In this document: in pieces, positions 38,093 through 60,854 of the stretch
Layout: the number at the start of each line of letters is the position of its first letter
Position numbering within the stretch: the first letter of the stretch is position 1
Assembly: GCF_022818495.1 (NCBI RefSeq)
Contig: NZ_CP089291.1
Location: 2,095,001-2,159,000 of the forward strand
From: Fodinisporobacter ferrooxydans
Lineage (GTDB): Bacteria; Bacillota; Bacilli; Tumebacillales; MYW30-H2
Direction of reading: 5' to 3'
DNA: 64,000 bases
Made by a program: the position numbers and the translations under genes
Notes under the pieces: generated by a model
Seen by the model: only the letters and a program-made list of their open reading frames with translations
Told to the model about the DNA's origin: nothing
The model's database searches: none

Positions 38093-38167
38093 CAAAAAGG
38101 TAAATGGAAAATATTGTGGAATACTTAACAGGAAAGGAAAATGATTGAAATGAAGGGAGGCTGCTCA

Positions 38168-39928: not shown

Positions 39929-39942
39929 GGGGAGATAACAGA

Positions 39943-40854: not shown

Positions 40855-40862
40855 GTGATACT

Positions 40863-41564
40863 TTGGACGTATTGACCTTTCGCGCAAAAGTTCCATATGA
40901 GTGTGGGTTTCGAAAAGAAACGGCGGTGAATACACACCCTACATATCCACTGCCGCCTTTTACAGCATGGACAGGTTTGATTGCGAATGCGTTAGGATTC
41001 GCCCAGGATGTGCCGCTGCCTTGGGAGATCCAGCTTGCCCAAGGGATTTTGCAGCAAGGATCGATGCATCAGTCTCTTACGCTGATTCATAAACGTGCAC
41101 ATCCCAGTGAAACCAGGTATCTGTATCAATCGACACTTGTATCAAAAGAGCGGATTTATTATCCTGCCTACGAGGTTATGGTATATACACCGGATACACA
41201 AGGATTTACTGATATTGTGGAATGTATTAGCGATCCGAAGCGGCCGCTGTATCTTGGAGCATCGGATGATCTCGTTGAAATTTACGATATCAAAATAGAC
41301 TCGGCAATACCGGTAAAAAGCAGCACATTTCATTCGATTGTTCCATTTGAATTGGGGAAAATGCTAACGGAAGCACGAGTGGTTCAACTGCCAGTACGCT
41401 ACGAGTATCAACCGGATGTGCTCCACCGTGAATTGTTTTATTTTATGCCGCAAGTGGAAACCGTCGGCAATAAAATCCCTGATCAACCCACTACAATTGA
41501 ACTAGACAGACCCATAGAAGGATATCAAGTGAAAGATCGGGTGGTGCAATTTGTTTCTTGCTAA
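40863..41564 (+). CDS. cas5: Cascade subunit Cas5 (Cas5t type)
   Basis: This 233-residue RAMP protein has VLTFRAKVPYECGFRKE at the N-terminus and TYPLPPFTAWTGLIANALG, the Cas5 motif with a PPxT(A/S)xxGxLxNxLG pattern. It binds the crRNA 5' handle next to Cas8. The start is TTG. Its end overlaps the start of cas3 by 14 bp, suggesting coupling. Confidence 0.87.
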   Translation: MDVLTFRAKVPYECGFRKETAVNTHPTYPLPPFTAWTGLIANALGFAQDVPLPWEIQLAQGILQQGSMHQSLTLIHKRAHPSETRYLYQSTLVSKERIYYPAYEVMVYTPDTQGFTDIVECISDPKRPLYLGASDDLVEIYDIKIDSAIPVKSSTFHSIVPFELGKMLTEARVVQLPVRYEYQPDVLHRELFYFMPQVETVGNKIPDQPTTIELDRPIEGYQVKDRVVQFVSC

Positions 41565-44229
41565 GCACAACCAAACGTATGAAGGACATATTTTAGACTG
41601 CCTTACTATAGCAACGCATATTTTAACGAAGTATCAAGTAACAATGGAGAAGATTTTAAAACGATTACCCGGGGAATTCAATCTGGAATTCCCCGTCTTT
41701 CGCAAATTATGTATCATGGGTGTTTTCTTGCACGATTCGGGAAAGTTAACGGAAGAATGGCAGAGAGCCATTCATTCATCGGATCAAAGTGGAAAAAAAA
41801 AGTTGCCCGCTCATACACCGTACTCGTTTGCCGTCATCCAGTCCTTATTTCCGGATATGGATATATCTCCTTTGCAATTGATGAAGCTTGCAAGTGTCTC
41901 ACATCATGGATTGCTTACCAATGATACATATAGCGGCGAATCGAATCTTGCAACGAAAGGCCCAATTCCGTTTCATGTAGATGGATTCAATGAAATCAAG
42001 CAAAAGTTGTCTGTCGGATATCCAGAGCTCAAGGATATTCCTGATCTTTTCGGGACGGAAATGTTGTTTGATTCGACGGCTAAAGGAAATTTGCTTCCTA
42101 ATGTGATTTCCAATCGCATGCGGCATATAAAGCAAGTGTATGGACGAACTAGTCCGAAGACAAAAAAGCTGTATATAAAATCATTGTTTGCCTTATTTTC
42201 TTGGGTGATCAGTACTGCAGACAAATGGGCCAGTCGTATCGCAAATATTGAACTTGCAGGCAATGTAGAGAAAGAATATGACGCAGTGGTTGATATGGAG
42301 AAAGTGGAGCGGCATTTGAAAGTATGGTCGAATAGAGAATGGCCTGACATAACGATTGAAGGTGAAGATTTACGCCCATTCCAAGAAGATGTGGAAGGTG
42401 CCGGTCCGTTTGTCATTGCCGAAGCTCCGTGCGGAGAAGGCAAAACGCTTGCCGCTTTACGATGGGGACTTTCCCAAATCCGGCAAGGCCACGCCAATCG
42501 ATTGATTATCTGTATGCCGACGCAAACGACTTCCAATGCGTTATATCAACAATTGATCACAGCGTATCGGATTCCAAAGGATCATGTTGGTATCTATCAT
42601 GGAGATGCAGAATTTTTCTATGAACATATAAAAGAGGAATTGGCATCGAAACATGATGTAGATAACAAGATGGAGGACCCTCATGAACAGGGACGCCCCG
42701 ATCCTTTATTTGATTCGCTGGTATTTCAAAAATCCATTGTCGTGACAACAGCCGATCATCTGGCGTATAGTTTTTTGCATTGTTATCGATATGCAGACTA
42801 TACGTTTGGCGCCGTTCAGCAAGCGGCGATTATTTTTGATGAATTGCATGTATTCGATCAGACTTGTATGGGAAATATTTTGGACATGTGTGAAGTCATG
42901 ACAAAGCTTAAGATTTCACATTTGTTGATGACTGCTACTTTGCCTCACTTTATCGAGGCGGCGTTTTATGAGAAGATCCCGGAAACCTATCGAAAAGTGA
43001 GGTCTGCCAAATTTACAGATTCTGTGACGGATCATTATCGATATAAATTGAATCGGTTGTCTTGTGCAATTTTTGCAGAGGATGACGTTCATCCCATATT
43101 AATAGAGATACTCCAAAATTCAAGAGGTTTGCGCAGAATTGTTTATGTGAATTTGGTACAAGATTCGGTCAATATGTATGGGAAGATCCAGCATTTGTTT
43201 CCGGACGAAAATGTGGTATTGTATCATTCGGAATTTACACGGATTCACCGTTTGAGGAAAGAACAATCGATTCAACGATTGTTTAAACAGTCGAATGGAA
43301 CTTGGGTAGAAGGAGACCAATCATTTGATGCATCTCGAGGTACCATTTTGATCACAACCCAAATTGCCGAGATTAGCCTAGATATATCGGCTGACCTGAT
43401 GATTAGCGCTCTTGCACCTTGTGATACTTTGATCCAAAGGGCGGGTCGCCTTCATCGGAAAGGTAAGTCTGGTTTAACGGATGTTTGTGATTGTCCTCAA
43501 TGTGAAAAGCTTCATCAAAAAGGAATCGAAAATTTGGAGTTTACACTGTATGTAGCAGATTTGCCCGAAGGTGATTCAAATGCATTATTTCCTTATGTAA
43601 GTGCAGAAATTCTTAAGAGAGAGTCCGAGCATGTATTGCTACGGACAAAACGGACGATGGAGAATGAACAGAGAATGTCAGCCGCCCGTGAAAGTGAATG
43701 GATCAATCGTGTATATAAAGGTGAGGCTCTTTTGTCGCATTCCCAGATGAAAAAATGCATAGAGGAAGATTGTTTATTTGGAGCAACCGTACAGCAGCGA
43801 TTTGGGGACGAAGATAGCACACAATCCGATGGAGGGAGCGGATTTGCTTTTCGCGATATTCAGGTGAAAAAGCGTACGACCCTGCCATATGATGCAATCA
43901 AAGATTCTGTTGATGATTCGCTCCAGTTTTTCAAGAACCTTGCGTTTTCAGATTTTAAGGAAATCGTAGAGCGCGATGATTGGAATATAACAGAAGAAAA
44001 TACAAATGAACAAGATATAAATATTTTATTAGAAAAGTACCGAAAATACTTACACAAGCATAAACTGCAACTGAATTTCTCCAGATATCGCCAGATTGAA
44101 CGAAACTATTCTATTGTAAAATTTCATGGGCGATATAATTCTTTTTTGATTACAGATGCACCCTATCGATTTTCTGATGGAATTCATTTAAGAAATTCAG
44201 ATCAAATACAGACTACAAAAGAGAGTTGA
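41551..44229 (+). CDS. cas3: Cas3 HD nuclease-helicase
   Basis: The product has 892 residues. The N-terminal HD nuclease has GVFLHDSGKLTEEW near 57 and SHHGLL near 118. The SF2 helicase follows: APCGEGKTLAAL (Walker A, near 290), TTADHLAYSF, FDELHVFD (motif II), LLMTATLP, and ITTQIAEISLDISADL with LIQRAGRLHRKG (motif VI). Cascade recruits it to shred target DNA. HD and helicase motifs look intact, so the I-B system appears competent for DNA interference. Confidence 0.95.
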   Translation: MFLAKHNQTYEGHILDCLTIATHILTKYQVTMEKILKRLPGEFNLEFPVFRKLCIMGVFLHDSGKLTEEWQRAIHSSDQSGKKKLPAHTPYSFAVIQSLFPDMDISPLQLMKLASVSHHGLLTNDTYSGESNLATKGPIPFHVDGFNEIKQKLSVGYPELKDIPDLFGTEMLFDSTAKGNLLPNVISNRMRHIKQVYGRTSPKTKKLYIKSLFALFSWVISTADKWASRIANIELAGNVEKEYDAVVDMEKVERHLKVWSNREWPDITIEGEDLRPFQEDVEGAGPFVIAEAPCGEGKTLAALRWGLSQIRQGHANRLIICMPTQTTSNALYQQLITAYRIPKDHVGIYHGDAEFFYEHIKEELASKHDVDNKMEDPHEQGRPDPLFDSLVFQKSIVVTTADHLAYSFLHCYRYADYTFGAVQQAAIIFDELHVFDQTCMGNILDMCEVMTKLKISHLLMTATLPHFIEAAFYEKIPETYRKVRSAKFTDSVTDHYRYKLNRLSCAIFAEDDVHPILIEILQNSRGLRRIVYVNLVQDSVNMYGKIQHLFPDENVVLYHSEFTRIHRLRKEQSIQRLFKQSNGTWVEGDQSFDASRGTILITTQIAEISLDISADLMISALAPCDTLIQRAGRLHRKGKSGLTDVCDCPQCEKLHQKGIENLEFTLYVADLPEGDSNALFPYVSAEILKRESEHVLLRTKRTMENEQRMSAARESEWINRVYKGEALLSHSQMKKCIEEDCLFGATVQQRFGDEDSTQSDGGSGFAFRDIQVKKRTTLPYDAIKDSVDDSLQFFKNLAFSDFKEIVERDDWNITEENTNEQDINILLEKYRKYLHKHKLQLNFSRYRQIERNYSIVKFHGRYNSFLITDAPYRFSDGIHLRNSDQIQTTKES

Positions 44230-44235
44230 AATATT

Positions 44236-44997
44236 TTGTTGCAAGAACTTGAGTTGAATTTTTCCGTATTGCATGATCATAGGCGAAATGGAAACATAAA
44301 TGAGGCAATTCATGGCTGGTTATTTCATCGTTTAAAGGTGACAAGTCCATCTCTAGCAGATCAAATTCATAACATGCGGATCAAACCGTTTGCCATTGAT
44401 GCCATTTCCAAAAAAGGAACTGTTTTGACGAGTGGAAAACGGATATCCGCTTCGATTTGTATTTTCTCTCCTCAATATTCCCACTCGATTTCTGACTCTT
44501 TAACACATGCGTTGGGTAAGGATTATGAGATCGGGAGAGTAGGGGTGAAATTTGATCAGATGTCTGTAAAACGCAAACAAACGTATGAACAATTAATTGA
44601 AGAGTCGTTTTCCCGCGACTATGAACAAGTTCAAGTAACGTTTGTTTCACCGACCAGTTTTCGACGTGAAGGCGTACAGATTTTATATCCTTCACCTGAA
44701 CTGGTATTGCAATCATTGCACAATCGTTGGAAAGAATTTTGTCCCGTAAAGACGACGAACATGGATACAAAATGGGAAGAACGATTTGTAGTAAGTCGCT
44801 ATCAATTGCAAACCAAACTAGTAGTATTTGATAAATACCCGATTGTTGGTTGTGTTGGAAATATCCAATATACACGAAGTAAGCATGCAAATTATTACCA
44901 AGATAAGTTGGCGCATGCATTGTTTCAATTTGGTACGTATTCTGGTGTAGGATATAAAACAACGATGGGCTTGGGAAGAATGCATGTTGCATTTTAA
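44236..44997 (+). CDS. cas6: Cas6 repeat endoribonuclease, type I-B operon copy
   Basis: The 253-residue RAMP protein has an EAIHGWLF motif near residue 27 and the C-terminal Gly-rich loop GVGYKTTMGLGRMHV typical of Cas6. It would cut the precursor at the base of the GAATTCCCC/GGGGAATT hairpin, leaving the ATTGAAAC handle. The start is TTG, 6 bp behind cas3. A second, complete Cas6 and a remnant occur nearby. Confidence 0.9.
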   Translation: MLQELELNFSVLHDHRRNGNINEAIHGWLFHRLKVTSPSLADQIHNMRIKPFAIDAISKKGTVLTSGKRISASICIFSPQYSHSISDSLTHALGKDYEIGRVGVKFDQMSVKRKQTYEQLIEESFSRDYEQVQVTFVSPTSFRREGVQILYPSPELVLQSLHNRWKEFCPVKTTNMDTKWEERFVVSRYQLQTKLVVFDKYPIVGCVGNIQYTRSKHANYYQDKLAHALFQFGTYSGVGYKTTMGLGRMHVAF

Positions 44998-44999
44998 AT

Positions 45000-45126
45000 T
45001 GGCAAAAGAAGAAAAACAAGACGAGTCCAATGCAAAAGGGTTTATGCAAACATTATTGCGATTTGCTTCCTATGTGGGTATCGGTTATAAATCTACTATG
45101 GCTTAGGGCAAATTGAATTAATTGGT
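45000..45126 (+). pseudogene. cas6: C-terminal remnant of another Cas6, frameshifted
   Basis: Codons for FMQTLLRFASYVGIGYKSTM end in GCT TAG. Restoring one G gives GGC TTA GGG CAA ATT GAA TTA, that is GLGQIEL, the normal Cas6 end. About 40 C-terminal residues remain directly behind the intact cas6. The fragment resembles the end of the III-A cas6 (NYMGIGYKSTMGLGHVKIV) more than the adjacent I-B copy (GVGYKTTMGLGRMHV). Confidence 0.75.
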
Positions 45127-45175
45127 CAAAACAATAATGAATCATTCAATCAGAAAGGTGGTTGATGGAGTGATT

Positions 45176-45496
45176 ATGCATATACAAGAGCAATTGGTGA
45201 AATTAATACAAGAAATAAACAACGTAACCTCCGCGAACAAGATCTATTTGTTTGGTTCATATGCGTATGGTGAACCAAACGAAAACAGTGATGTTGACCT
45301 TTGCATTGTAATCAATAATACAGATACTGGAAAAAGAGAACTTGTAAGATCCATTCGGTCTCGAATTGCCGAGGTTGCAACGATTCCAGTTGATGTTTTG
45401 GTTTATGACGAATATGAGTTTCTCGAACGGGCATACTTAGAATCGACAATGGAACATATGATCGCCCATGAGGGAGTCTGTGTGTATGAACAATAA
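45176..45496 (+). CDS. MNT-type nucleotidyltransferase
   Basis: The 106-residue product is a minimal nucleotidyltransferase with IYLFGSYAYGEPNENSDVDLCIV, the GS-x9-DxD catalytic pattern, near residues 35-50. In MNT-HEPN modules this protein neutralises the HEPN RNase by nucleotidylation. The HEPN partner gene here is truncated. The ATG has GGAG 5 nt upstream; earlier in-frame starts overlap the cas6 remnant. It is an insertion inside the I-B cas operon. Confidence 0.8.
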   Translation: MHIQEQLVKLIQEINNVTSANKIYLFGSYAYGEPNENSDVDLCIVINNTDTGKRELVRSIRSRIAEVATIPVDVLVYDEYEFLERAYLESTMEHMIAHEGVCVYEQ

Positions 45497-45620
45497 AGAT
45501 ATAGCGCAAGTTCATTCCCCCTTTCATATGGACATAAACGAAAATGATATAAAGAAAGTGATTGAAAGTACGGAACGAATCAAAAATTTTCTTCGGAGTA
45601 TTATAGAATCAAATGTTTAG
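45486..45620 (+). pseudogene. Truncated HEPN-domain partner of the MNT gene
   Basis: The ATG overlaps the MNT stop by 11 bp, as usual in such modules, but only 44 codons follow. Residues from HSPFHMDINENDIKKVIESTERIKNFL match the C-terminal helix of HEPN toxins. The N-terminal helices and the RxxxxH catalytic motif are missing, so no RNase activity is expected. Confidence 0.65.
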
Positions 45621-45622
45621 AG

Positions 45623-45652
45623 CCACCTTTAATATTAGGTGGTTTATTTGTT
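45623..45652 (+). terminator. Terminator before cas4-cas1
   Basis: CCACCT pairs with AGGTGG and is followed by TTTATTTGTTTG. It may end the effector transcript, so cas4-cas1-cas2 would need its own promoter in the 105 bp that follow. Confidence 0.6.
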
Positions 45653-45757
45653 TGCATTTGGAAATCAGAGAGAATTTTTAATCCATATAATCATGTCTAT
45701 CGAATTAGAAATATGGCAATAGTAGTACTAGATTTTAAAAAAGGTGGAGAATAAATC

Positions 45758-47452
45758 ATGTCGGAAAATCTATTGCCTATTTCCCAAGTTGCTGAAATTT
45801 TGTACTGTCCGCGCAATTTTTACTATCGAATGGCTGAAGGGGTCGACGACAGCAATGAACATACGTTGCAAGGCAAATGGGACGATGAGAAGCGGGAAGA
45901 ACGGTTATCAGTTAAACGGGAAAGCGGAATGCAAACCCGTCACATTCATGTCAGCTCAGAACAGTTAGGTATCGTAGGCATTTTGGATGTACTGGAAACA
46001 GGAAAAGAAACATGCATTGTAGAGTTTAAAAAGGGCGAGTATCGGTTGAATCAGAATGACGATGTGCAATTGTGTGCACAAGCTATGGCTTATGAAGACA
46101 TGACCGCAACCATAATGGATTTTGGTTATGTGTACTATCATGCATCGCATCGAAGGCGTAAAGTCTTTTTCACAGAAGATTTACGGGAATTGGTTTTGCA
46201 AACAATTGAAAGGGCTCGAGAAATACTTGGAGAACATAGGGTTCCGGAACCAATCAATGATGCTAGGTGTGGCGGATGTGCATTACAAGCGCGCTGTATG
46301 CCAGGAGAAGTAGAGTATCTGCGTGAAATCGATGGGAAAAACAGCGAAAACAGTTTGGCCAACAAGCAGCGTCTTGTACGCCCGACACCTAGTTTCCGGT
46401 TGGGGAGAGTGTTATATATAGATGAAGAATTCGCGTATGTCAAAAAAGAGGGAAGGCACCTGAAGATTACAAAAAACAAAGAGGTTTTGCGAGAGGTACC
46501 TATCGACAGCGTCGATGAAGTTGTTAGTTTATCGAATGTGCAATGGACGACGCAAGCACAGTGCTTATTGATGACAGAAGGCATCCCATTAACATTTTTG
46601 CATACGAACGGCCGATATGTGGGGACTGTAATCGGCTCTTTTTCAAAAAATAGCTTGCAAAGAATTCGGCAGTTTGAGATCCATCAGTCGCCGGAACGCT
46701 GGAAGATTGCAGCTTCATTTTCCAAAGGAAAATTGCAAAATATGCGTGTAATGATGCTTCGAAACGCTAAAAACATACATGAATGGAACGAAAGGAATGA
46801 ACAAAGTACGCAAGATCCAAACGATGATCTGTCAGATATTCCTCAATATGAAGCATGCATGAAACAGATTGAAAACGCTATAAAAAAGCTCAACTCAACA
46901 TTGGATCGGGATGAGATTCTTGGATGGGAAGGGATTGGCACAAAAGCATATTTCACATTATTTCGGAATTGGATTCGTCCTCCTTTTGTGTTTTCCGGCC
47001 GAATTCGAAGACCACCTACAGATCCTGTCAATGCTCTGTTGAGCTTTGGTTATTCGCTGCTAGCGAAATCGATTGAGTCATTGGTCTATGCAGTTGGATT
47101 AGATCCTTATATTGGATTTTTGCATGAGTCCCAATATGGAAGACCTGCGCTCGCCTTAGATTTAATGGAAGAGTTTCGACCTGTTATCGTTGATTCCATC
47201 GTGTTGCGGGCAATCAATCAGAGAATTCTCGCCGCTGATGATTTTGAACAGCGGGAGAACAGTATTTTATTAAAAGATTCAGCCAGAAAGACGTTTTATA
47301 AGTTGTTTGATCAAAGACTTTCTCAGGAGATCACGCATCCCGTTTTTCATTACCATGTAACGTATCGAAGAATGATGGAATTGCAGGTTCGCGTTCTTGC
47401 AAAAACGTTAACAGGTGAGATTCCAAATTATATCCCGTTAAAAGTGAAATGA
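45758..47452 (+). CDS. cas4-cas1: Cas4-Cas1 fusion
   Basis: The product has 564 residues. The Cas4 part (about 1-195) has YCPRNFYYR (Cys17), GIVGILDVLE and CIVEFKKGEY (RecB-type nuclease), and the Cys cluster RCGGCALQARCMPG that completes an Fe-S site. The Cas1 integrase part (about 205-564) has GFLHESQYGRPALALDLMEEFRPVIVD with the catalytic His and acidic residues. A fused protein couples PAM trimming of prespacers with integration. AAGGTGG lies before the ATG, and cas2 follows after 9 bp. Confidence 0.95.
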   Translation: MSENLLPISQVAEILYCPRNFYYRMAEGVDDSNEHTLQGKWDDEKREERLSVKRESGMQTRHIHVSSEQLGIVGILDVLETGKETCIVEFKKGEYRLNQNDDVQLCAQAMAYEDMTATIMDFGYVYYHASHRRRKVFFTEDLRELVLQTIERAREILGEHRVPEPINDARCGGCALQARCMPGEVEYLREIDGKNSENSLANKQRLVRPTPSFRLGRVLYIDEEFAYVKKEGRHLKITKNKEVLREVPIDSVDEVVSLSNVQWTTQAQCLLMTEGIPLTFLHTNGRYVGTVIGSFSKNSLQRIRQFEIHQSPERWKIAASFSKGKLQNMRVMMLRNAKNIHEWNERNEQSTQDPNDDLSDIPQYEACMKQIENAIKKLNSTLDRDEILGWEGIGTKAYFTLFRNWIRPPFVFSGRIRRPPTDPVNALLSFGYSLLAKSIESLVYAVGLDPYIGFLHESQYGRPALALDLMEEFRPVIVDSIVLRAINQRILAADDFEQRENSILLKDSARKTFYKLFDQRLSQEITHPVFHYHVTYRRMMELQVRVLAKTLTGEIPNYIPLKVK

Positions 47453-47461
47453 GGTGCAAAT

Positions 47462-47758
47462 ATGGATAAACATCTTACAACCCATTATGTGATTGTGTAT
47501 GACATTGCAGATGACAGACGAAGAAACCATGTTGTAAAAGCTCTGAAAGATTATGCGTATCGCGTACAATACAGTGTTTTTGAAGCCGAGCTAAAGCCCG
47601 ATTCACTTTTGAAGCTGCGTCGTCGCATCTCAAAATTGATTCATCTAAAAGAAGATAGCGTGATTTATTATTCAAGGTGTGGACGTTGTCGGGGGGAGGA
47701 AATTAGAGAAGGCAAGACCTACTCCGTATTAGATGATGAAGATTGGTTTTACGTTTAA
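47462..47758 (+). CDS. cas2: Cas2
   Basis: The 98-residue product has the ferredoxin-like first strand YVIVYDIADDRRRNHVVKALKDYAYRVQYSVFEAEL, the usual Cas2 signature with the conserved Asp, and ends EDWFYV. It pairs with Cas1 to form the integrase scaffold. GAGGTG precedes the ATG. The leader and array begin 225 bp later. Confidence 0.94.
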   Translation: MDKHLTTHYVIVYDIADDRRRNHVVKALKDYAYRVQYSVFEAELKPDSLLKLRRRISKLIHLKEDSVIYYSRCGRCRGEEIREGKTYSVLDDEDWFYV

Positions 47759-47983: not shown

Positions 47984-50900
47984 CTCAGAGGAAATTGAAT
48001 TCCCCACGGGGAATTGAAACTTCACTAGCCACAGATTTGTATGACAAATGATATCAAATCTCAGAGGAAATTGAATTCCCCACGGGGAATTGAAACTTTG
48101 GAAACATTGGAGCCATTTTTACCATTGTGCTAAACTCAGAGGAAATTGAATTCCCCACGGGGAATTGAAACAGCGGGTAGGGTAGCAGCAAATGCAGTTC
48201 GTGCTATGACTCAGAGGAAATTGAATTCCCCACGGGGAATTGAAACTCGGCAAATATATATGCTGATAAGTCAATTGGTCCAGTTCTAACTCAGAGGAAA
48301 TTGAATTCCCCACGGGGAATTGAAACGATCAAACAGCTCCCATGTACGTGAGTGGCGGTGCACCCTCAGAGGAAATTGAATTCCCCACGGGGAATTGAAA
48401 CCACCAAACTATGATTCACCATCCAACGTAACCTCCCACCACCTCAGAGGAAATTGAATTCCCCACGGGGAATTGAAACTATAAAACCCGTTAAAGCAAC
48501 AATAGCAACTTGAACACTCAGAGGAAATTGAATTCCCCACGGGGAATTGAAACTCGGTAACGCAAAATCGCTGTCTTTCAAGTTGTTTCGCTCAGAGGAA
48601 ATTGAATTCCCCACGGGGAATTGAAACACTTGGTTCATGGAGTCTGTCATGCGTTGATAGCCAACTCAGAGGAAATTGAATTCCCCACGGGGAATTGAAA
48701 CAAATTAAAGGAGGAATGGAAATGAATAGTAAACATGATATACTCAGAGGAAATTGAATTCCCCACGGGGAATTGAAACTGATTCGTGGTGTCAATGGTG
48801 TTACGACCGCAAACACACTCAGAGGAAATTGAATTCCCCACGGGGAATTGAAACCCACAATTGTGTACAATTGCTCCGTTATGTACTCCCCTACTCAGAG
48901 GAAATTGAATTCCCCACGGGGAATTGAAACTACATTTCTTCGAGTAAGTTGTATATACCAGAAAGTGCCTCAGAGGAAATTGAATTCCCCACGGGGAATT
49001 GAAACGTAAAATATTCAAAAAGTTTATTGGAGGATTCATGAACTCAGAGGAAATTGAATTCCCCACGGGGAATTGAAACTAGGAGGGATTTATATGCGTT
49101 GTTGCGATTGTGGTAAAACTCAGAGGAAATTGAATTCCCCACGGGGAATTGAAACAGTACGGGAATAGCGGAGGGCGTGGCGGGAAGCAATAGCAGCCTC
49201 AGAGGAAATTGAATTCCCCACGGGGAATTGAAACTCATCAAGCGGTTCACCGTAATATGCCAGTGATTCTCTCAGAGGAAATTGAATTCCCCACGGGGAA
49301 TTGAAACACAGTTGAGAATGTAAAGGTGCCGAATCCCGTTGCACTGACTCAGAGGAAATTGAATTCCCCACGGGGAATTGAAACTTTGAGAATTTAAAAG
49401 GGTTCAAAGTTATAAAAATAACCTCAGAGGAAATTGAATTCCCCACGGGGAATTGAAACGATCCTTGACTTTTGTGTATAGTACAGGCGTAACTTACTCA
49501 GAGGAAATTGAATTCCCCACGGGGAATTGAAACTAAGAAACGTCTACGCTTTGTTCAGGTGAAAAGGTTCCACCTCAGAGGAAATTGAATTCCCCACGGG
49601 GAATTGAAACTGCGCTATATCCGGCTCCGTTGGTTCCGGCAAAACTTCGCTTCTCAGAGGAAATTGAATTCCCCACGGGGAATTGAAACGTAAGCCACCG
49701 ACTAAGTCAAGCGCCTTTTTCTGCGGTGTTCCTCAGAGGAAATTGAATTCCCCACGGGGAATTGAAACGCAGCAGGCGGATTCGCAGGCGGTGCGATGAA
49801 ACGAGCTGGTCTCAGAGGAAATTGAATTCCCCACGGGGAATTGAAACACTGCGGAGATTGAACAAGATGCAAAAGGTTTTGCTCCTTACTCAGAGGAAAT
49901 TGAATTCCCCACGGGGAATTGAAACGCGATAAATACCGTCTCTTTTACTGTCGCAGCGAATACAGCCCTCAGAGGAAATTGAATTCCCCACGGGGAATTG
50001 AAACTATGCGAGAAGCACTACGGTGAATGGAGGAAGCGGAACTCAGAGGAAATTGAATTCCCCACGGGGAATTGAAACACGATTGTTACTGTTTTTCTTC
50101 GGTTGATTCGTTTCGCCGCTCAGAGGAAATTGAATTCCCCACGGGGAATTGAAACAGCAACAAATTCCCGTTCTTGTCTGTGATAGACATGAACCCTCAG
50201 AGGAAATTGAATTCCCCACGGGGAATTGAAACATTTTCCGCTGTCGGGCAAACGAAGAATCTCGGTCGCTGCCTCAGAGGAAATTGAATTCCCCACGGGG
50301 AATTGAAACTGGCTCATACGCTTACAGCAAGCGACTGGAGAGGGTCTCAGAGGAAATTGAATTCCCCACGGGGAATTGAAACTCGGGTGCAATTTTTTTT
50401 AATTTGACTCAATCGTGAAGGATCCTCAGAGGAAATTGAATTCCCCACGGGGAATTGAAACTTTACGCTACCTCTGAATTCAGTTTTAAACTGTGTTGGC
50501 ACTCAGAGGAAATTGAATTCCCCACGGGGAATTGAAACGATGCAGACAAGACTGCAAAGAGCGGTGATGCTACTTTTTTTCTCAGAGGAAATTGAATTCC
50601 CCACGGGGAATTGAAACATAATGTCTACCGTTTGAACAAGTGCTTCATGCAAAAGGGCGGCTCAGAGGAAATTGAATTCCCCACGGGGAATTGAAACGAC
50701 GCTGCCGCAAGAGTATTTCTTTGGGTCGTTTGGCAGCTCAGAGGAAATTGAATTCCCCACGGGGAATTGAAACACCGTCCATGTTGATCCTTTGAATTTC
50801 GCTGGTTTTGGTGGATCTCAGAGGAAATTGAATTCCCCACGGGGAATTGAAACCTACTCCTACAGACTGGACAGGCGGGGCAAGCGCTTATCAACAAACT

Positions 50901-53459
50901 CAGAGGAAATTGAATTCCCCACGGGGAATTGAAACAATATTACCTATCCTTACAAAGTCAACGAATTGAGGACTCAGAGGAAATTGAATTCCCCACGGGG
51001 AATTGAAACCTGTTCACATTTAAAAACTGTGTGCCGCTGCTGTTCTCTCAGAGGAAATTGAATTCCCCACGGGGAATTGAAACGTCGGTACATTGCGCGA
51101 TGACATCGCGAGCATGTCGGACTCAGAGGAAATTGAATTCCCCACGGGGAATTGAAACCTCAACTTTGTGGTAGTACTTGACAAACCCTCTCAATTATCT
51201 CAGAGGAAATTGAATTCCCCACGGGGAATTGAAACTCCTCTGGATCTTTCGGTGTCTCTACTTCCACGGTCGCGTTTGCTACTCAGAGGAAATTGAATTC
51301 CCCACGGGGAATTGAAACATGTGAAACGTACATGTCCCCAAATTATGCGACAAATATCTCAGAGGAAATTGAATTCCCCACGGGGAATTGAAACATCAAA
51401 TAAATAACTTTCAATACGAGAGTTATGATAACCCTCAGAGGAAATTGAATTCCCCACGGGGAATTGAAACCTTGAATTATGGGATACATTCGCGGGAGTT
51501 GATGATCTACCTCAGAGGAAATTGAATTCCCCACGGGGAATTGAAACTCCAATGTCAAGTTCGACACGTCAGAATTAACTCCAATAACTCAGAGGAAATT
51601 GAATTCCCCACGGGGAATTGAAACACTTTTAAAAGTATTCCGAAAAGAATTTCGATTCAAAAATCCTCAGAGGAAATTGAATTCCCCACGGGGAATTGAA
51701 ACATTTAATGTTTTGTCGAAGTATTCCCACGCCATTACCCACTCAGAGGAAATTGAATTCCCCACGGGGAATTGAAACACTTGTAATAACTTTCCAACGT
51801 ATCCCGAATAGATCCTCTCAGCTCAGAGGAAATTGAATTCCCCACGGGGAATTGAAACGCTGTCCATTCCGAACAAAGCAATTCCGTTTGCCGTTTTCTT
51901 CTCAGAGGAAATTGAATTCCCCACGGGGAATTGAAACATGTCTTCCTTTCGAGCTAAAAATAACATTGAAGCACAACTCAGAGGAAATTGAATTCCCCAC
52001 GGGGAATTGAAACCAAAAATCCGAACATTGGTTAGAAATAGGAAATATATGGACTCAGAGGAAATTGAATTCCCCACGGGGAATTGAAACGCTATGGAAT
52101 CAATCTCATTTGTTCTTCCTGCATTTTTCCATCTCAGAGGAAATTGAATTCCCCACGGGGAATTGAAACACAGCGTGGGGTCGTTTGTGGAGCATGGGGT
52201 GGCATAGGCTCAGAGGAAATTGAATTCCCCACGGGGAATTGAAACAGCGTACATGAAACATTTAGAAATCGAAAAAAAGAACTCAGAGGAAATTGAATTC
52301 CCCACGGGGAATTGAAACGTATCACAGTTTGATGAGGGTTTTTGTAACTTATCAATTGCCTCAGAGGAAATTGAATTCCCCACGGGGAATTGAAACTTTC
52401 AAAAATCGCAAGAATCGGTCGAGAGCCGAGAATCTCAGAGGAAATTGAATTCCCCACGGGGAATTGAAACCTGTGACTAAAAAAGAACTAATCCTCATTA
52501 GCTCCAAAGGACTCAGAGGAAATTGAATTCCCCACGGGGAATTGAAACTTCCTAGTGACTTCTGCCAGGAATTTCGCATTGCCATCGCTTACCTCAGAGG
52601 AAATTGAATTCCCCACGGGGAATTGAAACATATCAGATGTACTATCCATTGCTTCCAATATATCAGCATGTCTCAGAGGAAATTGAATTCCCCACGGGGA
52701 ATTGAAACTGAAAATATGCAACACGCAGCTTTAAAAGTTGTTGAACTCAGAGGAAATTGAATTCCCCACGGGGAATTGAAACTTAGCTAGTTCTTGAATC
52801 GCTGCCTCGACCGTTTCATCTCAGAGGAAATTGAATTCCCCACGGGGAATTGAAACGCTGTCAATCGCGCTTTTCGTGATCGGCCGACCTTCCATCACTC
52901 AGAGGAAATTGAATTCCCCACGGGGAATTGAAACAGCAATAACAAAGTATACGTATTTCCGGTTGTAGTCCTCAGAGGAAATTGAATTCCCCACGGGGAA
53001 TTGAAACACAAGATACTTGTACATTTCTTTGTCCTCGTTGTTTCCCTCAGAGGAAATTGAATTCCCCACGGGGAATTGAAACTCAACACGTTCGATTGGA
53101 TTCGTTGGATTTCCTGATTGCTCAGAGGAAATTGAATTCCCCACGGGGAATTGAAACCGCGATACAGCAGAAAATGAATGGCCTGATCCAAACTTACACT
53201 CAGAGGAAATTGAATTCCCCACGGGGAATTGAAACGCAGGAACGACAATCACAAACGGAAACGCTACTTTGTCGCTCAGAGGAGATTGAATTCCCCACGG
53301 GGAATTGAAACCATTGTAAAATTACGTGAAACAAACGGCGCAGATGAAGCTGCTCAGAGGAAATTGAATTCCCCACGGGGAATTGAAACTTTCCGATTAG
53401 GCTACGTTCGCACAAGCGGGAACAAGATTGACTCAGAGGAAATTGAATTCCCCACGGGG
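47984..53459 (+). CRISPR. CRISPR array, 72 repeats and 71 spacers
   Basis: The repeat is 37 nt. It starts CTCAGAGGAAA, continues with the palindromic TTGAATTCCCCACGGGGAA and ends TTGAAAC. I counted 72 repeats by their starts, with spacers of 36-46 nt (mean about 40). All look identical except repeat 71 from the decayed end region near 53275 (one A to G, at AGGAGATTG) and the final copy (53432-53459), which keeps only 28 nt. The hairpin and ATTGAAAC handle suit Cas6 processing. Both the I-B and the III-A-like effectors probably use it, because no second array is visible. Confidence 0.98.
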
Positions 53460-53642
53460 TGTGAATAAGCACCTGTTTTGTATTGTAAATAGCATTACAA
53501 TCCTATACAATATTTACTAGATTATGTTATTTTTGTGTTTATTATGATTCGGGGGGAAGATAAGTGGCGTGGGTGATTTTTTGGAATAATGTTTCATTTT
53601 GTTCCAGTTTTTAGTAATATCGGTGGGTGTGTAATGCTTTAG
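53460..53642. other. AT-rich region behind the array
   Basis: No gene is visible. GTAAATA and TATTTAC form an inverted repeat near 53487-53519 that might end array transcription. Confidence 0.4.
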
Positions 53643-54167: not shown

Positions 54168-54929
54168 TTGCTGTGCTTATGGTCGATTACACTAGCATGT
54201 ATAACTGAAGGGAAAGTTAGAGGGAATGAAGGAGAGGCGGTTCATGGATGGTTATTTAATAACTTACGTAATTTAAGTCCAGAGATTGCATCTCGTTGGC
54301 ATGAAGTGCAAGTGAAACCATTCCGTGTTTCTTTTAAAAATTTTTCAGCGGGCAAGAATTATGTTCAAGGAGATACAGCAACTTTAATGATTGGTGCTGC
54401 TACATTTGAAGCAGTTCATTTTATTGGTGAATTAATTCAAAAGATAGATTGTGTGAAATTAGGTACAGCCATTTTTTTAATGAAAGAAACTAGTATTTTA
54501 CAGCAAATTACATATGATGATTTAATTCAAAGTTCTTTTACATCAGTTTCTACTAAAGAAAGAAAAGTTCAATTCCTTTCACCTACTACATTCAGAAGTG
54601 AAGGGGTGCATATATTGTTTCCAACGCCTGAACTGTTTTTTTCTGGATTGGGTCGAAAGTTCAATGCATTATATCAGAAACCATTTCCTCCATTTTCAAT
54701 TAATTGGGACCGGGAGATTCTCATAAATCGGTATCGATTACAAACAACAAATGTATCGTTCGTAAAATATAAAATCGTTAGTTTTACAGGTGATATGATA
54801 TTTTCTCCCACTGGTAACAATATTTCTGATTATACGGTTTCAATTTTTAAATTGCTTTGTGATTTTGCAAATTATATGGGGATTGGCTATAAGTCTACAA
54901 TGGGGCTCGGACATGTGAAAATTGTCTAG
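54168..54929 (+). CDS. cas6: Cas6, type III-A operon copy
   Basis: The 253-residue Cas6 has GEAVHGWLFNNL near residue 22, VQFLSPTTFRSEGVHILFPTPEL in the centre and the Gly-rich C-terminus MGIGYKSTMGLGHVKIV. The order of motifs equals that of the I-B copy, but sequence identity seems only moderate, so it is an old paralogue. GGGGGA lies 5 nt before the TTG start. Both Cas6 proteins probably face the same repeat. Confidence 0.88.
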   Translation: MLCLWSITLACITEGKVRGNEGEAVHGWLFNNLRNLSPEIASRWHEVQVKPFRVSFKNFSAGKNYVQGDTATLMIGAATFEAVHFIGELIQKIDCVKLGTAIFLMKETSILQQITYDDLIQSSFTSVSTKERKVQFLSPTTFRSEGVHILFPTPELFFSGLGRKFNALYQKPFPPFSINWDREILINRYRLQTTNVSFVKYKIVSFTGDMIFSPTGNNISDYTVSIFKLLCDFANYMGIGYKSTMGLGHVKIV

Positions 54930-55045
54930 GATTAATTCATTTTATAACTGATCTGATTGGTGATTCATAATATATGAAAGTATTAATCATATATAAAAGA
55001 TCATGGCCGAAACGTTGCAAATAAATTTGTGAAAGGAATTAATGC

Positions 55046-57292
55046 ATGAAGCAGGCAGATATAATTTTAACCGCTATGTATTTTCCAGTTTTCAAGCTGT
55101 TTGAAACGTATCTCAGTAAAGAATCATATTCTGCACATCTGTCTTGCATACAAAGAATCCAGAACCCTTTTGATGGGAAATTATTAATTGAACGATTAAA
55201 GAGCATTTTAACTAAAAATTCAAATGATGAAATTAACCGCTTGAATCAAACATTTGAACTTGTAGGATTTCATCAGTATTCGAAAGATCCCATGGCAATG
55301 GTTTCTGTTTACTGTCATGTGGAGCTGGAACAATCGTTTTGGAGACGAAGTTACTATCGGTTGTCTCGTCTAAATCCTGAGGCAATATTTGCAGATCAGC
55401 AAACTCAAAACATGGATATTTTACGTTTGAGAGAACACCTTGAGGATTTTAGAAAGGAGTTAGAAAGCCTTTTTGAATTGCAATGGTCTACAATCGATCA
55501 ATTTATTGTTCGCATCTCAAATTCGATTCAGCAATGGCTTTGGTGTATTCCTGCTCCTGTCAAAGGATTACCAATGGAATCTGTTTCAGATCTTTGTAGA
55601 ATGGCAGCGTCTATTTCAGCTTGTCTATTGCAGCATACCGATCAGATATCAATTCTAGTAGGTGATATTTCAGGAATACAGCGTTATATATTTGATATTG
55701 CTGCCTCAGGTCAGAAAGGTATTGCACGAAGGTTGAGGGCGAGGTCAATGTATGTGGCACTTTTGTCCGAAGCAATGAGTCAAATGATAACCAACCATTT
55801 TCACATTAGTCCTTTGAATGTAATAATGTCTTCTGGCGGAAAATTTTATATTCTTGTTCCTGGAGGAGAAGAAATAAATGATAAATTAGATCGATTGCAA
55901 GAAAAATTAGACACATGGATGATTGCGAATACAAATGGGGAACTCATTATCAATCTTGGATGGTTTCATTTTGAAAAGGATCAAATTCGAGATGGTGATT
56001 TTATTCTTGAAAAACTGAATGAATCATTACTTTTGGGAAAATCACGGCCATTGTCTGGAACGTTAATTCATAATCAAACTTGGTATGAAGAAAAATGGAT
56101 CATTCAAGAAAACAAAGAGCATGGTCGGTGTATCATCTGTAAAAAGTTTAAGATCCATGAAAAAGACAAGAGCATGTGCAGATTTTGTTACAGAGATCAT
56201 CAAATAGGCCGCAAATTGCTAACAGCACGTTTTATTGCATTTTACCACAAATCGCATGTTTCTGGAGATATTGAGTTCTTAGATGGTATTTCGGTAACAT
56301 TTCATGACGAGTTGCCGCAACAAAATGAACAAACCTATGTCGTTTGGGCTTTTCAGACTGTTGAAGACAAAGCAATGATTGTGAATCTGCCATTACTTAA
56401 TAAGATGATATCTAATCATGTTCCTTGGAATGGCAATGAAGTTTTATCCTTTGATGAAATTGCGGAACGAAGTAAGGGCACAAAACAACTTGGATTTTTG
56501 AAGGCCGATGTTGACAATTTAGGAATAATAATGACGTTTGGTTTGAAAAAGAATGACAAAAAATTACGCTTGTCTGTAATCTCTAGCCTAAGTTTTATGT
56601 TGGATATGTTTTTTTCAGGTTGGCTTTCGGAACAGTTAAAAATATATTTCCCAAATATTTATACCGTTTTTTCAGGTGGGGACGATCTTTATATTATAGG
56701 CCCTTGGGAAGAAATTACAAAGTTTTCAATTGTTTTAAAAAATTCGTTTTATAAGCATGTATGCAATCATCCAGATATTACAATATCAGCAGGATTAACA
56801 TTTGCTCATCCCAAGTCACCGATCCATTATCAAACAGAACTAACCGAGAATGAACTAGAAAATGCAAAGGAAATACCGTCAATTGAAAATAATACAAGTC
56901 GAAATCAAGTAAGCATTTTTAATACTTCGCTCAGTTGGGAACGTTTTGCGTTGTTGTTGGAAGAAACTGATAAACTCTTGAACTGGTGGCAGATGAAAAA
57001 AATCTCTTCATCGATACTTTATCGCCTCTCTTCATTTGCTAATGACTATATTTCGTATCGAAATGGTGAAATAGGGCCAACCTATCTACCTTGGATATCT
57101 TATATGATTAAACAAAACATTTCACGGCAAGATACCGAATTGTTTCAATGGGTGAGTCAATTCATTGATTCCAAATACATTGACTCTCAAGAAATGAATC
57201 CATTGGCATATATCCCAGTTCAGGTTAAATTGTTACAAATGTTTAAAAAGGAGGAGTTTGATAACGATGGCAGATCAAAGATACCCCAATAA
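55046..57292 (+). CDS. cas10: Cas10/Csm1 with GGDD but without a visible HD motif
   Basis: The product has 748 residues. The first palm-like domain (LVGDISGIQRYIFDIAASGQ, near 205) is followed by a zinc finger (CIICKKFKIHEKDKSMCRFC, near 364-383). The second palm has FLKADVDNLG and FSGGDDLYIIGPW near 545, the cyclic-oligoadenylate synthase site. The N-terminal 200 residues contain no His-Asp pair such as HDIGK, so ssDNA nuclease activity is not expected. AAAGGAA precedes the ATG. Confidence 0.9.
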   Translation: MKQADIILTAMYFPVFKLFETYLSKESYSAHLSCIQRIQNPFDGKLLIERLKSILTKNSNDEINRLNQTFELVGFHQYSKDPMAMVSVYCHVELEQSFWRRSYYRLSRLNPEAIFADQQTQNMDILRLREHLEDFRKELESLFELQWSTIDQFIVRISNSIQQWLWCIPAPVKGLPMESVSDLCRMAASISACLLQHTDQISILVGDISGIQRYIFDIAASGQKGIARRLRARSMYVALLSEAMSQMITNHFHISPLNVIMSSGGKFYILVPGGEEINDKLDRLQEKLDTWMIANTNGELIINLGWFHFEKDQIRDGDFILEKLNESLLLGKSRPLSGTLIHNQTWYEEKWIIQENKEHGRCIICKKFKIHEKDKSMCRFCYRDHQIGRKLLTARFIAFYHKSHVSGDIEFLDGISVTFHDELPQQNEQTYVVWAFQTVEDKAMIVNLPLLNKMISNHVPWNGNEVLSFDEIAERSKGTKQLGFLKADVDNLGIIMTFGLKKNDKKLRLSVISSLSFMLDMFFSGWLSEQLKIYFPNIYTVFSGGDDLYIIGPWEEITKFSIVLKNSFYKHVCNHPDITISAGLTFAHPKSPIHYQTELTENELENAKEIPSIENNTSRNQVSIFNTSLSWERFALLLEETDKLLNWWQMKKISSSILYRLSSFANDYISYRNGEIGPTYLPWISYMIKQNISRQDTELFQWVSQFIDSKYIDSQEMNPLAYIPVQVKLLQMFKKEEFDNDGRSKIPQ

Positions 57293-57680
57293 TTATGAGT
57301 ATTTGAAAAATGGGTATTATACCGATTCGTCAAACAAAAGATTACGGCGTGGAATTATTATTGAAGATGCAAAGCGTGTAGCAGAAGATTTAGTAAGTGG
57401 CAAAATTAAAATGACATCAACTACGTTGCGACGATTTTACTCAAAGCTTTTAAGTGCGTATGAGAAATATAAATCAAACAATGATTTTGAAGGGATCGTA
57501 AATCAAATTGAAGCATTAATTCCAGATGCTGAGATTGCGGTGAAAAGAGAAGTAGCACCTTATCAATTTAAAAACTTTATTCGTGAAAACGTAAATTTAG
57601 CCTCGCGAAATCCTGATAATTTAAAAGGATTTGTAAGACATTATCAAAGCATCATTTGTTTTTTTTCTGAAAAAAAATGA
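57267..57680 (+). CDS. csm2: Csm2, type III-A small subunit
   Basis: The 137-residue helical protein matches Csm2: an N-terminal disordered stretch, KMTSTTLRRFYSKLLSAYEKYKSNNDF, and EIAVKREVAPYQFKNFIRENV. Csm2 copies line the inner filament opposite Csm3. The ATG lies within the end of cas10 (26-bp overlap), with AAGGAGGAG about 12 nt upstream; a TTG nine bases earlier is possible. Confidence 0.85.
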   Translation: MADQRYPNNYEYLKNGYYTDSSNKRLRRGIIIEDAKRVAEDLVSGKIKMTSTTLRRFYSKLLSAYEKYKSNNDFEGIVNQIEALIPDAEIAVKREVAPYQFKNFIRENVNLASRNPDNLKGFVRHYQSIICFFSEKK

Positions 57681-57706
57681 TTCATTAATTAAATGGAGGG
57701 ATTTTC

Positions 57707-58369
57707 GTGAAATTAAAACAGTTTACGAAGATTACAGGAATTATACATTGTGAAACGGGACTGAAAATTGGCGGAACTAAGGATAGTATTGACATTGGCG
57801 GTGTAGATGCACCAATTATTCGTCATCCTATTACACGTGTTCCATATATCCCCGGATCCTCATTGAAAGGGAAAATGCGTTCTTTACTAGAATCTATCTA
57901 TTCTTCAAATACGAGTATTTACCCTTGTGGTTGCGGTACGTGCAAGGTATGCATAAATTTTGGTTCTTTAAAATCTACGTCCCCAACTCGTGTACTTGTA
58001 CGTGACGCCCATATGGCAGAGAAAAGTTTAGCAGTTTTAAAAAATGCTAATGAGGAATCTGGAATGAATTTTGTAGAGGTTAAGACAGAAAACTTTATTA
58101 ATCGCTCTGTAGGAAAAGCAGAAAAACCTCGGGTATTTGAACGTGTACCTGCTGAAACAGAATTTCATTTTGAAATCAGTATACGAATCTTTGAAAACGA
58201 TTTGGAGACAGATGTGGTGAATTTTGTACTTGAAGGATTGAAACTCGTCGAACATGATTATCTAGGTGGATCTGGTGGACGTGGATACGGAAAAGTAAAG
58301 TTTAAGAATGTTGTTGTAGAAACTGTGCCATTACAAAATTATAAAGAAGATGTGGTTGATCCTAAATGA
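57707..58369 (+). CDS. csm3: Csm3, backbone RNase of the type III-A complex
   Basis: The 220-residue RAMP protein has LKIGGTKDSIDIGGVDAPIIRHP (catalytic Asp in GGVDAP near residue 34), YIPGSSLKGKMRSLLE, and the Gly-rich GGSGGRGYGKVKF end. CGCGTCKVC near 75-83 may bind zinc. The catalytic Asp is present, so periodic cleavage of target RNA is expected. GGAGGG lies before the GTG start. It overlaps csm4 by four bases. Confidence 0.92.
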   Translation: MKLKQFTKITGIIHCETGLKIGGTKDSIDIGGVDAPIIRHPITRVPYIPGSSLKGKMRSLLESIYSSNTSIYPCGCGTCKVCINFGSLKSTSPTRVLVRDAHMAEKSLAVLKNANEESGMNFVEVKTENFINRSVGKAEKPRVFERVPAETEFHFEISIRIFENDLETDVVNFVLEGLKLVEHDYLGGSGGRGYGKVKFKNVVVETVPLQNYKEDVVDPK

Positions 58370-59304
58370 TCCTAGAATATCAGTTGCAATTTCATTCCCC
58401 GTTGGTTGGTACTCTTGATAGTGATATGATCATGGGATCGATGGCTTGGGCCTTATTAAGATGCGAGGGGGAACAAGCCTTACAATCATGGATAGATATG
58501 TGTAAACAAGGCAATCCGCCGTTTGTTGTATCAAATGGTTTTCCGACAGGTTTTTTTCCAAAACCAATGATTCCTTTTAGAAAAAAGGAACAACCCTTAC
58601 ATAAACAAGAACAAATAAAAGAGGCCCGTACCAATAAAAAGTTGAAAGCTAGAAAATGGGTTAGTACTAACCTTTTCTATGAAATGCTAAACGGTACTTT
58701 TGTACAAATGCCTGGTATGGATGAACCAAGGGATTTTATAGGTCAACAAATTCACGCAATTATTGATCGAACAACTGGCACAAGTCTTACTGAAGGTGGA
58801 CTGTATGAAACGAGTTATCGTTGGTTCTCAATGAATATATCTTTGTACTTTCAAATTTTCGACCTTTCATGGGAAAATCGAATTGATGACTTGATGAAAT
58901 ATCTCGAATATGAAGGAATTGGGGCAAAAAAATCAATAGGTTATGGGAGATTTCGAATTATAACAAAACAACACATGCAAGTGAGACGAATCAATAATCC
59001 GAATGGGTTTGTGGTTTTGTCCCATTTTGTTCCTTCAAGAGATGATTCTACTAATGGGTTTTATAAAATTAAAACAAAGTACGGCCGTCTAGGTGAAGAA
59101 TTTTCGAAAGGTGTATCAGTAAATCCGTTTAAAAAGCCTATATTAATGATCGAACATGGTGCATGTTTTTATACTCAAAAACCGCAGAAGTTTTGTGGTA
59201 GAATTCTTTCCAATATTTCTTTTAATCACACAGACAAAGTTGTTCAGATGTGTTATGGGTTTATTATGCCCGCACGTCTACCAATCATTGATGGTAACCT
59301 CTGA
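58366..59304 (+). CDS. csm4: Csm4, Cas5-like 5'-handle subunit
   Basis: The 312-residue product begins like Csm4 (LEYQLQFHSPLVGTLDSDMIMGSMAWALL) and has FFPKPMIPF, GGLYETSYRWFSMN, and GAKKSIGYGRFRI with the RAMP Gly-rich loop. It should hold the crRNA handle next to Cas10. The usual next gene, csm5, is absent; a CARF-HEPN gene follows after about 60 bp. Confidence 0.87.
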   Translation: MILEYQLQFHSPLVGTLDSDMIMGSMAWALLRCEGEQALQSWIDMCKQGNPPFVVSNGFPTGFFPKPMIPFRKKEQPLHKQEQIKEARTNKKLKARKWVSTNLFYEMLNGTFVQMPGMDEPRDFIGQQIHAIIDRTTGTSLTEGGLYETSYRWFSMNISLYFQIFDLSWENRIDDLMKYLEYEGIGAKKSIGYGRFRIITKQHMQVRRINNPNGFVVLSHFVPSRDDSTNGFYKIKTKYGRLGEEFSKGVSVNPFKKPILMIEHGACFYTQKPQKFCGRILSNISFNHTDKVVQMCYGFIMPARLPIIDGNL

Positions 59305-59366
59305 AATTTCTTAGTTGTCTTTATGTACAAGGAAACAGTTCTATTCAAATGGATAGGAGAATCAGT

Positions 59367-60854
59367 ATGGCGATTGTTCTGATGAATATTGGAAATTCGG
59401 ATATCCAACCTGAAAGAAAAAGATTAACAGAAAAAGAAAGGAGAGACTCGCTTTCAGTAGTTTTGGAAGATCTGAAATCAGAAACACAAGTCTTAGATGA
59501 TCCGCAGTTCCCGATACTCTCAAGTGTGGAAAAATATCTTTTAAACAAAGGAGAGAAACTCAGTTTTCTAGTATTGTTTTATACCAGACAACAGAGTGAA
59601 TCCTTTGGTAATTCGGATACTTATTTAGATTTTGAAATTATTCAGTTGGCAATTGCAAAAAAGAAATTATTCTTAAATGAATCTGCTAGAGTAATTGGCA
59701 TTCCGATTCAGGAAGTTCCCTACTCATATGATCATATGTTAATTCATTATAGAAAAGCTATAAATTTGCTAGAAGAACAATTCAATTTTGAAGGAACTGA
59801 CTTTGGGCAAACTCTGTTTATATCGATGACAGGGGGAACTCCCGCGTGTAATTTTGGTCTTTTACATGCTATTCACGAATGGAAAAAGTTTCGAACCAAC
59901 AAAAAATTTATTTATTCGCCACGCCCTGCGAAAGATGAAGAACAGCCTCCTGCAATAGATATCCAAGTCAATACATATTTGTCCTTAAAAGAGGTCTTAA
60001 GAAATTTAAATGAACTATTTGAGGGAAATCATTATGGCCAGGTTAAAACTTTATTAAAGAATCTTTCCGTTGTAGATTTCAATCATGAAGATGTATTCCT
60101 CTTCTTGGATGCATTATTAATGAGACGGAATCAACAATACCAGAGGTCCATTGAAACCTTAAATAAAATTCGAAATACTGATTTTAGAGATACTCTCTTT
60201 TTTAAAAGTTTTTTTAATCAGGTGCGGGAATTGATCCAGGGGATTAGTATTCACGAAACGATCGATTCGAAGTGGTTAAAAGATATATCCTTCAAAAAGC
60301 TTTTGGAGGAGCAATATTGGAAATTGGTAAACTATTATCATTTAGAGGAATATAATGAATGGACAACTTTATTGATGACCTTTTATGAAAACCTATTAAA
60401 AATTAAGGTGATCACATTACTAGGACCACAGAAATTTAATAAAGGTAATTTTTCTGTAACACTAAGAAATGAATATACGAGTCTTCTAAAAGACAGTTCA
60501 GATAATTTGATTCATCAGGATAATTTTTTGTCAAATAATTCACGTTATCCAAATAGAAGAACCTATCAGAATTTAATTTCTGTTGTTGATCCGTTAAGCT
60601 TATTAAGGGAACCTGAATCGAGTTTTTGGGTATCGCAATTGGAAAAAATACACAAAAAACGGAATGAACTTATTCATGAATTTGGTGGATTAAACCGTGA
60701 AATGATCGAACAAGTCTTTTTACCAAAAAAATGGGATCAAGTGTTAAAGAAAGTATTGGTAGATGAATTTTACTTAAACATAGATTTGAATCCCCTAACT
60801 CCTATTCACTCCGGATTCTTAGATTGGATTGAAAACAAGCTTCTTAACTTTTAA
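59367..60854 (+). CDS. csm6: CARF-HEPN ribonuclease, Csm6-like
   Basis: The product has 495 residues. The N-terminal CARF domain (about 1-185) has VLMNIGNSD and the ligand loop ISMTGGTPACNFGLLHAI near 150. A helical linker is followed by a C-terminal HEPN domain with KKRNELIHEFGG, giving Arg432-x4-His437. Cyclic oligoadenylate from Cas10 would switch on its RNase activity. AGGAG lies 7 nt before ATG 59367; an ATG six codons earlier is weaker. It is the last gene of the III-A-like operon. Confidence 0.87.
   Translation: MAIVLMNIGNSDIQPERKRLTEKERRDSLSVVLEDLKSETQVLDDPQFPILSSVEKYLLNKGEKLSFLVLFYTRQQSESFGNSDTYLDFEIIQLAIAKKKLFLNESARVIGIPIQEVPYSYDHMLIHYRKAINLLEEQFNFEGTDFGQTLFISMTGGTPACNFGLLHAIHEWKKFRTNKKFIYSPRPAKDEEQPPAIDIQVNTYLSLKEVLRNLNELFEGNHYGQVKTLLKNLSVVDFNHEDVFLFLDALLMRRNQQYQRSIETLNKIRNTDFRDTLFFKSFFNQVRELIQGISIHETIDSKWLKDISFKKLLEEQYWKLVNYYHLEEYNEWTTLLMTFYENLLKIKVITLLGPQKFNKGNFSVTLRNEYTSLLKDSSDNLIHQDNFLSNNSRYPNRRTYQNLISVVDPLSLLREPESSFWVSQLEKIHKKRNELIHEFGGLNREMIEQVFLPKKWDQVLKKVLVDEFYLNIDLNPLTPIHSGFLDWIENKLLNF

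Follow-up and report, generated by a model that had tools for sequence, protein, structure and literature searches.

Organization of the locus and its surroundings

Within the window, by which we mean the whole 64,000-nt stretch of Fodinisporobacter ferrooxydans DNA that was analysed, six genes of a type III CRISPR operon lie on the + strand from 54168 to 60854. The operon begins with a cas6 (54168..54929; 253 aa, with TTG assumed as its start), a second, type III operon-linked copy that matched PF10040 with 58 bits and the PDLC01781 Cas6_IIIa profile at E 2e-23. Next come cas10/csm1 (55046..57292; 748 aa; 534 bits with TIGR02578, cut-off 170) and, overlapping it by 35 nt, csm2 for the Cas11 small subunit (57258..57680; 140 aa; TTG start), which scored 41.1 bits with PF03750 (cut-off 24.8) and 27.7 bits with TIGR01870, slightly below the cut-off of 30.6. 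They are followed by csm3, encoding the Cas7 backbone and target-RNA slicer (57707..58369; 220 aa; 208 bits with TIGR02582, cut-off 90), and by a full-length csm4 for the Cas5 foot (58366..59304; 312 aa; 139.5 bits with TIGR01903, cut-off 55, and 252 bits with PDLC01494). The place usually held by csm5 is a 44-nt gap (59305..59348) containing neither csm5 nor a remnant of it, beyond which lies a gene for a Csx1/Csm6-like CARF-HEPN ribonuclease (59349..60854; 501 aa; 103 bits with PDLC01509). Apart from this gap and the 116 nt between cas6 and cas10, the genes are separated by 26 nt or overlap, and all six are full length and free of stops. These open reading frames and profiles bear out the six genes, order, coordinates and strand given in an earlier note on this DNA; the note was also right that only a short space separates csm4 from the effector gene, but its length of about 60 bp was an overestimate.

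The combination of Cas10 and Csm2 is the stated criterion for type III-A (PMC10289348), and the locus encodes a Csm1-family Cas10, Csm2, Csm3 and Csm4, with the Csm1, Csm3 and Csm4 models above their cut-offs and Csm2 recognized through PF03750. Upstream on the same strand lie a type I-B-like locus (38141..47758; cas8b, cas7, cas5, cas3, cas6, a nucleotidyltransferase gene, a cas4-cas1 fusion and cas2, of which the cas4-cas1, cas2 and cas3 names come from reading the sequence and from similarity between loci) and a CRISPR array (47984..53468, +) of 72 repeats of 37 nt with spacers of 36-46 nt and a degenerate last repeat. The array, which sits between the I-B and III-A loci, is the only one in the genome with its repeat, and the repeat contains the palindrome AATTCCCCACGGGGAATT. 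The two cas6 paralogues that flank it (44236-44997, I-B-linked; 54168-54929, III-A-linked) are 30% identical. Near the III-A operon, adaptation genes occur only in the I-B locus. A comparison of the spacers with a phage collection gave no convincing match; a 33-nt, 91% match to a Flavobacterium phage (E 0.5) was treated as chance. The nucleotidyltransferase of the I-B locus (45122-45496; PF01909/PF18765), whose gene follows cas6 and precedes the cas4-cas1 fusion, is small and MNT-like. A 103-aa frame (53706-54017) between the array end and the III-A cas6 has no Pfam match and may not be a gene.

Search for Csm5 in the host genome

The role ascribed to Csm5 is to terminate the Csm3 filament and to bring in nucleases for the trimming of the crRNA 3' end. 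The canonical Csm complex has five subunits (Cas10 and Csm2-Csm5), and the window locus lacks the last of them, as the earlier note had claimed and as the 44-nt gap and the profile searches confirm. In the complete, single-contig 4.86-Mb genome the Csm5 model TIGR01899 had no match, and the generic RAMP model PF03787 found csm3, csm4 and, weakly, the locus cas6, with no further RAMP. A csm5 hidden elsewhere in the genome, which the earlier note had named as a finding that could overturn its reading, was therefore rejected. Profile searches of the locus likewise found no Csm5 domain within Csm4 or any other protein encoded there, and a Csm4-Csm5 fusion was ruled out, since Csm4 is of ordinary length, covers positions 24-303 of the 304-position TIGR01903 model and has no extra domain. 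No other RAMP gene occupies the csm5 position, again in agreement with the earlier note, and Cas6 is the sole candidate for a replacement. Since Csm5 is absent from the genome, from the RAMP scan and from the 44-nt gap, we regard the locus as a variant of type III-A and not as a canonical Csm system.

The family model has a known blind spot. A divergent Csm5 at the usual place in another genome (G688; L114, 5304-6503, - strand) escaped TIGR01899 at E 1e-4; absence judged by this model alone therefore overstates csm5 loss. In the window, a divergent csm5 between csm4 and the effector gene is excluded because 44 nt are too few for a gene.

Relatives, Cas10 phylogeny and functional residues

A search with the window Csm4 identified four relatives in the same order and class (G008, with 49% identity, G174, G041 and G315), all of them csm5-less, and a whole-genome Csm5 search of these four found none; more distant relatives (L015 and L016) carry csm5. 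The same Csm4 had no relatives among viral contigs. For a broader survey, genome contigs were scanned with a Cas10 alignment, which gave 80 loci whose genes were sorted by iterative profiles. Among the loci with enough sequence beyond csm4, 24 were csm5-less and 43 csm5-bearing, a ratio that is not a prevalence because the sample was chosen by similarity to the window Cas10, whose nearest relative is 38% identical. The 24 csm5-less loci, which answer the earlier note's proposal to look among relatives for the same gene order, share the cas10-csm2-csm3-csm4 core order and are spread across about six phyla, including Dethiobacter, Anoxybacillus, Lachnospiraceae, Peptococcaceae and others within Bacillota and, outside it, Chloroflexota, Nitrospinota and Nitrosomonas, Geobacter and Chthonomonadales MAGs. 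An extra gene after csm4 in three loci (L011, L012 and L013) was considered as a diverged Csm5 and rejected, as it proved to be Cas6. On a Limosilactobacillus fermentum plasmid (L106, CP033373), transposases interrupt a III-A locus directly after cas10, and no csm genes are present in the stretch shown.

The frequency of the csm5-less state was estimated from an even sample of the phylum. Of its 398 genomes 44 carry Csm1, and Csm5 scored above the cut-off in 38 of these; the others comprise one divergent Csm5, two loci truncated at contig ends and three csm5-less loci. The csm5-less state thus accounts for 3 of the 42 assessable csm1-bearing genomes, namely the window's own, G452 and G536, each with a Csx1 gene after csm4.

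That Csm5 is present and was simply not seen, being encoded elsewhere or too divergent to detect, is hardly credible, and for the host genome this reading is largely refuted. The divergent protein overlooked in G688 lends it some substance, as does Desulfotruncus (L026), a relative with a similar Cas10 and with a Csm5 encoded in another part of its genome. Desulfotruncus was the only one of 23 relatives with a Csm5 above the cut-off in a genome-wide search, in which some loci were partial and most genomes were drafts or MAGs, so that absence in them is weaker evidence. Against this reading stand the complete host genome, in which the generic model left no RAMP unassigned, the gap that no gene fits, and an unfiltered six-frame scan of the 24 csm5-less loci with a Csm5 profile, which met only Csm3 and one chance-level match (E 0.8).

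The window Cas10 groups with those of other csm5-less loci in a tree built from 87 Cas10 sequences. The csm5 state, scored for 24 csm5-less and 41 csm5-bearing sequences, needs two changes on this tree, against a mean of about 19 after shuffling, and none of 500 shuffles reached a value as low. Constraining the csm5-less sequences to a single clade improved the tree by 22 log units over a quick unconstrained search (p-AU 0.78). By these sequence comparisons the csm5-less state may stem from a single event, with which the data are compatible without proving it. As csm5-bearing sequences fall to either side of the root, loss of csm5 is suggested rather than ancestral absence, the root being a midpoint only.

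The cyclase, slicing and HEPN residues are conserved in the window proteins. The GGDD cyclase motif of Cas10 is intact (residues 544-547), and the AlphaFold model of this protein (pLDDT 88.7) best matches Lactococcus lactis Csm1 (6xn5_A) over the full length (Z 40.6, rmsd 3.1, 669 aligned). Csm3, which matches solved Csm3 chains at E 4e-40, keeps its catalytic aspartate within IGGVD at residue 34, and D34 is conserved in both the csm5-bearing and csm5-less sets. The effector is assigned to the Csx1/Csm6 CARF-HEPN type by the Csx1 profile PDLC01509 and by a HEPN R-x4-H motif, whose R438, N439 and H443 are invariant in all eight aligned proteins. Its model (pLDDT 78.7) has Thermus thermophilus Csm6 (5fsh) as the best Foldseek match (E 2.5e-9, probability 1.00); TM-scores are low (0.3-0.4) and the rmsd is large, and the modelled fold accordingly supports family membership and not details. 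The T. thermophilus protein, the nearest solved relative, was solved with cA4.

The HD motif of Cas10, in contrast to that of HD-bearing relatives, is degraded: the window protein reads LTAMYFPVF where they read LAALLHDIGKF, with FP at the HD position, and the motif is missing across the whole subclade nearest to the window Cas10. It is absent from 16 of the 24 csm5-less and 11 of the 43 csm5-bearing loci, counts that may be inflated by loci with truncated Cas10 frames. A tie between csm5 absence and HD loss was rejected because eight csm5-less loci retain HD, and these HD-bearing relatives indicate that the two losses were separate events. A recognisable HD domain is found in 65% of III-A loci (PMC11229360), from which it follows that type III-A does not require the motif. 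One csm5-less Cas10 (L043:1016-3319) retains HD with the following GK changed (LLHDVDKF) and is possibly an intermediate of HD decay.

With its HD motif degraded and its spacers devoid of phage matches, the locus might be taken for one in decay, with csm5 a recent loss and the other genes left over as remnants. We consider this very unlikely: the six genes are uninterrupted, the GGDD, Csm3 aspartate and HEPN residues have been retained, a deep and widespread group shares the csm5-less state, and the HD and csm5 losses are separate. The impaired complex that the earlier note had listed among its three alternatives fits poorly with the intact genes and the lineage-wide pattern.

A working model and comparison with known type III systems

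Of those alternatives we favour a complex that works without a cap. The window locus is probably a working, signalling-type III-A effector of a csm5-less lineage, with a Csm3 filament that has no dedicated cap; maintained function is argued by the persistence of the state across divergent Cas10s with conserved GGDD, Csm3 aspartate and HEPN residues, and the Csm5 cap seems to be something this lineage can do without, not an accidental loss. We infer the assembly, signalling and 3'-end formation of such a complex as follows. The one array, which also adjoins the I-B system, would supply the crRNAs of both systems. Csm4 with Cas10 would hold the crRNA 5' tag, while Csm3, together with Csm2, would polymerise along the crRNA and halt at the end of the protected RNA, so that the length of the complex would not be fixed by a dedicated cap. 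Host exonucleases may trim the crRNA 3' end back to the last Csm3, or the end may stay long. A foreign transcript that pairs with the crRNA would be sliced by Csm3, and the Cas10 cyclase would produce a cyclic oligoadenylate as the activator of the CARF-HEPN ribonuclease. With its HD motif gone, Cas10 is not expected to cleave DNA itself.

Complexes of this kind have precedents. A Staphylococcus epidermidis Cas10-Csm4-Csm3x5 complex was seen without Csm2 and Csm5 (PMC10289348), endogenous T. thermophilus complexes without Csm5 have been observed (PMC5256923), and an untrimmed 71-nt crRNA is possible in S. epidermidis complexes (PMC9762709). These are Csm3 filaments with no Csm5 at the end, although csm5 is encoded in both organisms and its product dissociates or is sub-stoichiometric, whereas the window genome has no csm5 gene. 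Some compensation may be needed where Csm5 is missing, since in S. epidermidis this protein brings in PNPase and RNase R and its truncation interferes with maturation of the crRNA 3' end (PMC9762709). A residue comparison of Csm3 between csm5-less and csm5-bearing sets found no compensating feature. A candidate signature (Tyr185 versus Ala and an insertion of 2-4 residues near 114-117) was set aside as resembling lineage differences; Tyr at site 185 is also present in the solved Csm3 chains of csm5-bearing S. thermophilus.

The main rival to an uncapped filament is a cap made by Cas6, which would remain on the 3' repeat hairpin after cutting the pre-crRNA and so end the Csm3 filament. Cas6 acts likewise at the head of type I Cascade complexes, the repeat palindrome could hold it, the III-A operon has its own second cas6 though the I-B locus already has one, and in four csm5-less loci (L011, L012, L050 and L043) cas6 lies in the csm5 slot right after csm4. 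We nevertheless hold a Cas6 cap to be unlikely. Linkage to cas6 is no commoner in csm5-less (14/24) than in csm5-bearing loci (30/43), the III-A cas6 of the window lies upstream of cas10 and outside the csm5 slot, and the clade is served by two distinct Cas6 profile groups.

Set beside canonical III-A loci (T. thermophilus HB8 plasmid pTT27, L105; S. epidermidis RP62a), the window locus has the same Cas10/Csm1, Csm2, Csm3, Csm4 order and likewise a CARF-HEPN effector downstream of its RAMP genes, but csm5 is missing between csm4 and csm6, the Cas10 HD motif is not intact, and there is no dedicated cas1/cas2 pair, the closest one belonging to the I-B locus. Type III-A2 of the 2025 classification (PMC12669027) is also a clade-level subtraction from III-A that keeps the cyclase and the Csm3 aspartate. 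It lacks Cas11/Csm2, whereas the window lineage has Csm2 and lacks Csm5, which places it outside III-A2. Types III-F, III-G and III-H are similarly reduced relative to standard type III (PMC12669027, PMC11229360), yet in these the cyclase is lost or inactive and HD is generally kept, the reverse of the window Cas10, whose intact GGDD sets it apart from all three. Phrase searches of the open-access literature returned no description of csm5-less III-A systems; such loci may be listed elsewhere without comment.

Whether the csm5-less loci form a widespread III-A clade that is permanently without a cap, with a single kind of backbone protein and its own rule for crRNA length (an open filament or a retained Cas6), is in our judgement evenly balanced. 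If so, the clade would merit its own variant name, as III-A2 does for Cas11 loss. The lineage would be a natural experiment on whether target sensing and signalling by cyclic oligoadenylate need capping and 3' maturation, and it would let the determinant of complex length be probed; a complex of four kinds of protein would also give RNA-sensing tools a simpler scaffold. The window gene set comes close to the 'ancestral' III-A-like complement with a single Cas7 that PMC3150331 envisages; the midpoint-rooted Cas10 tree suggests loss instead.
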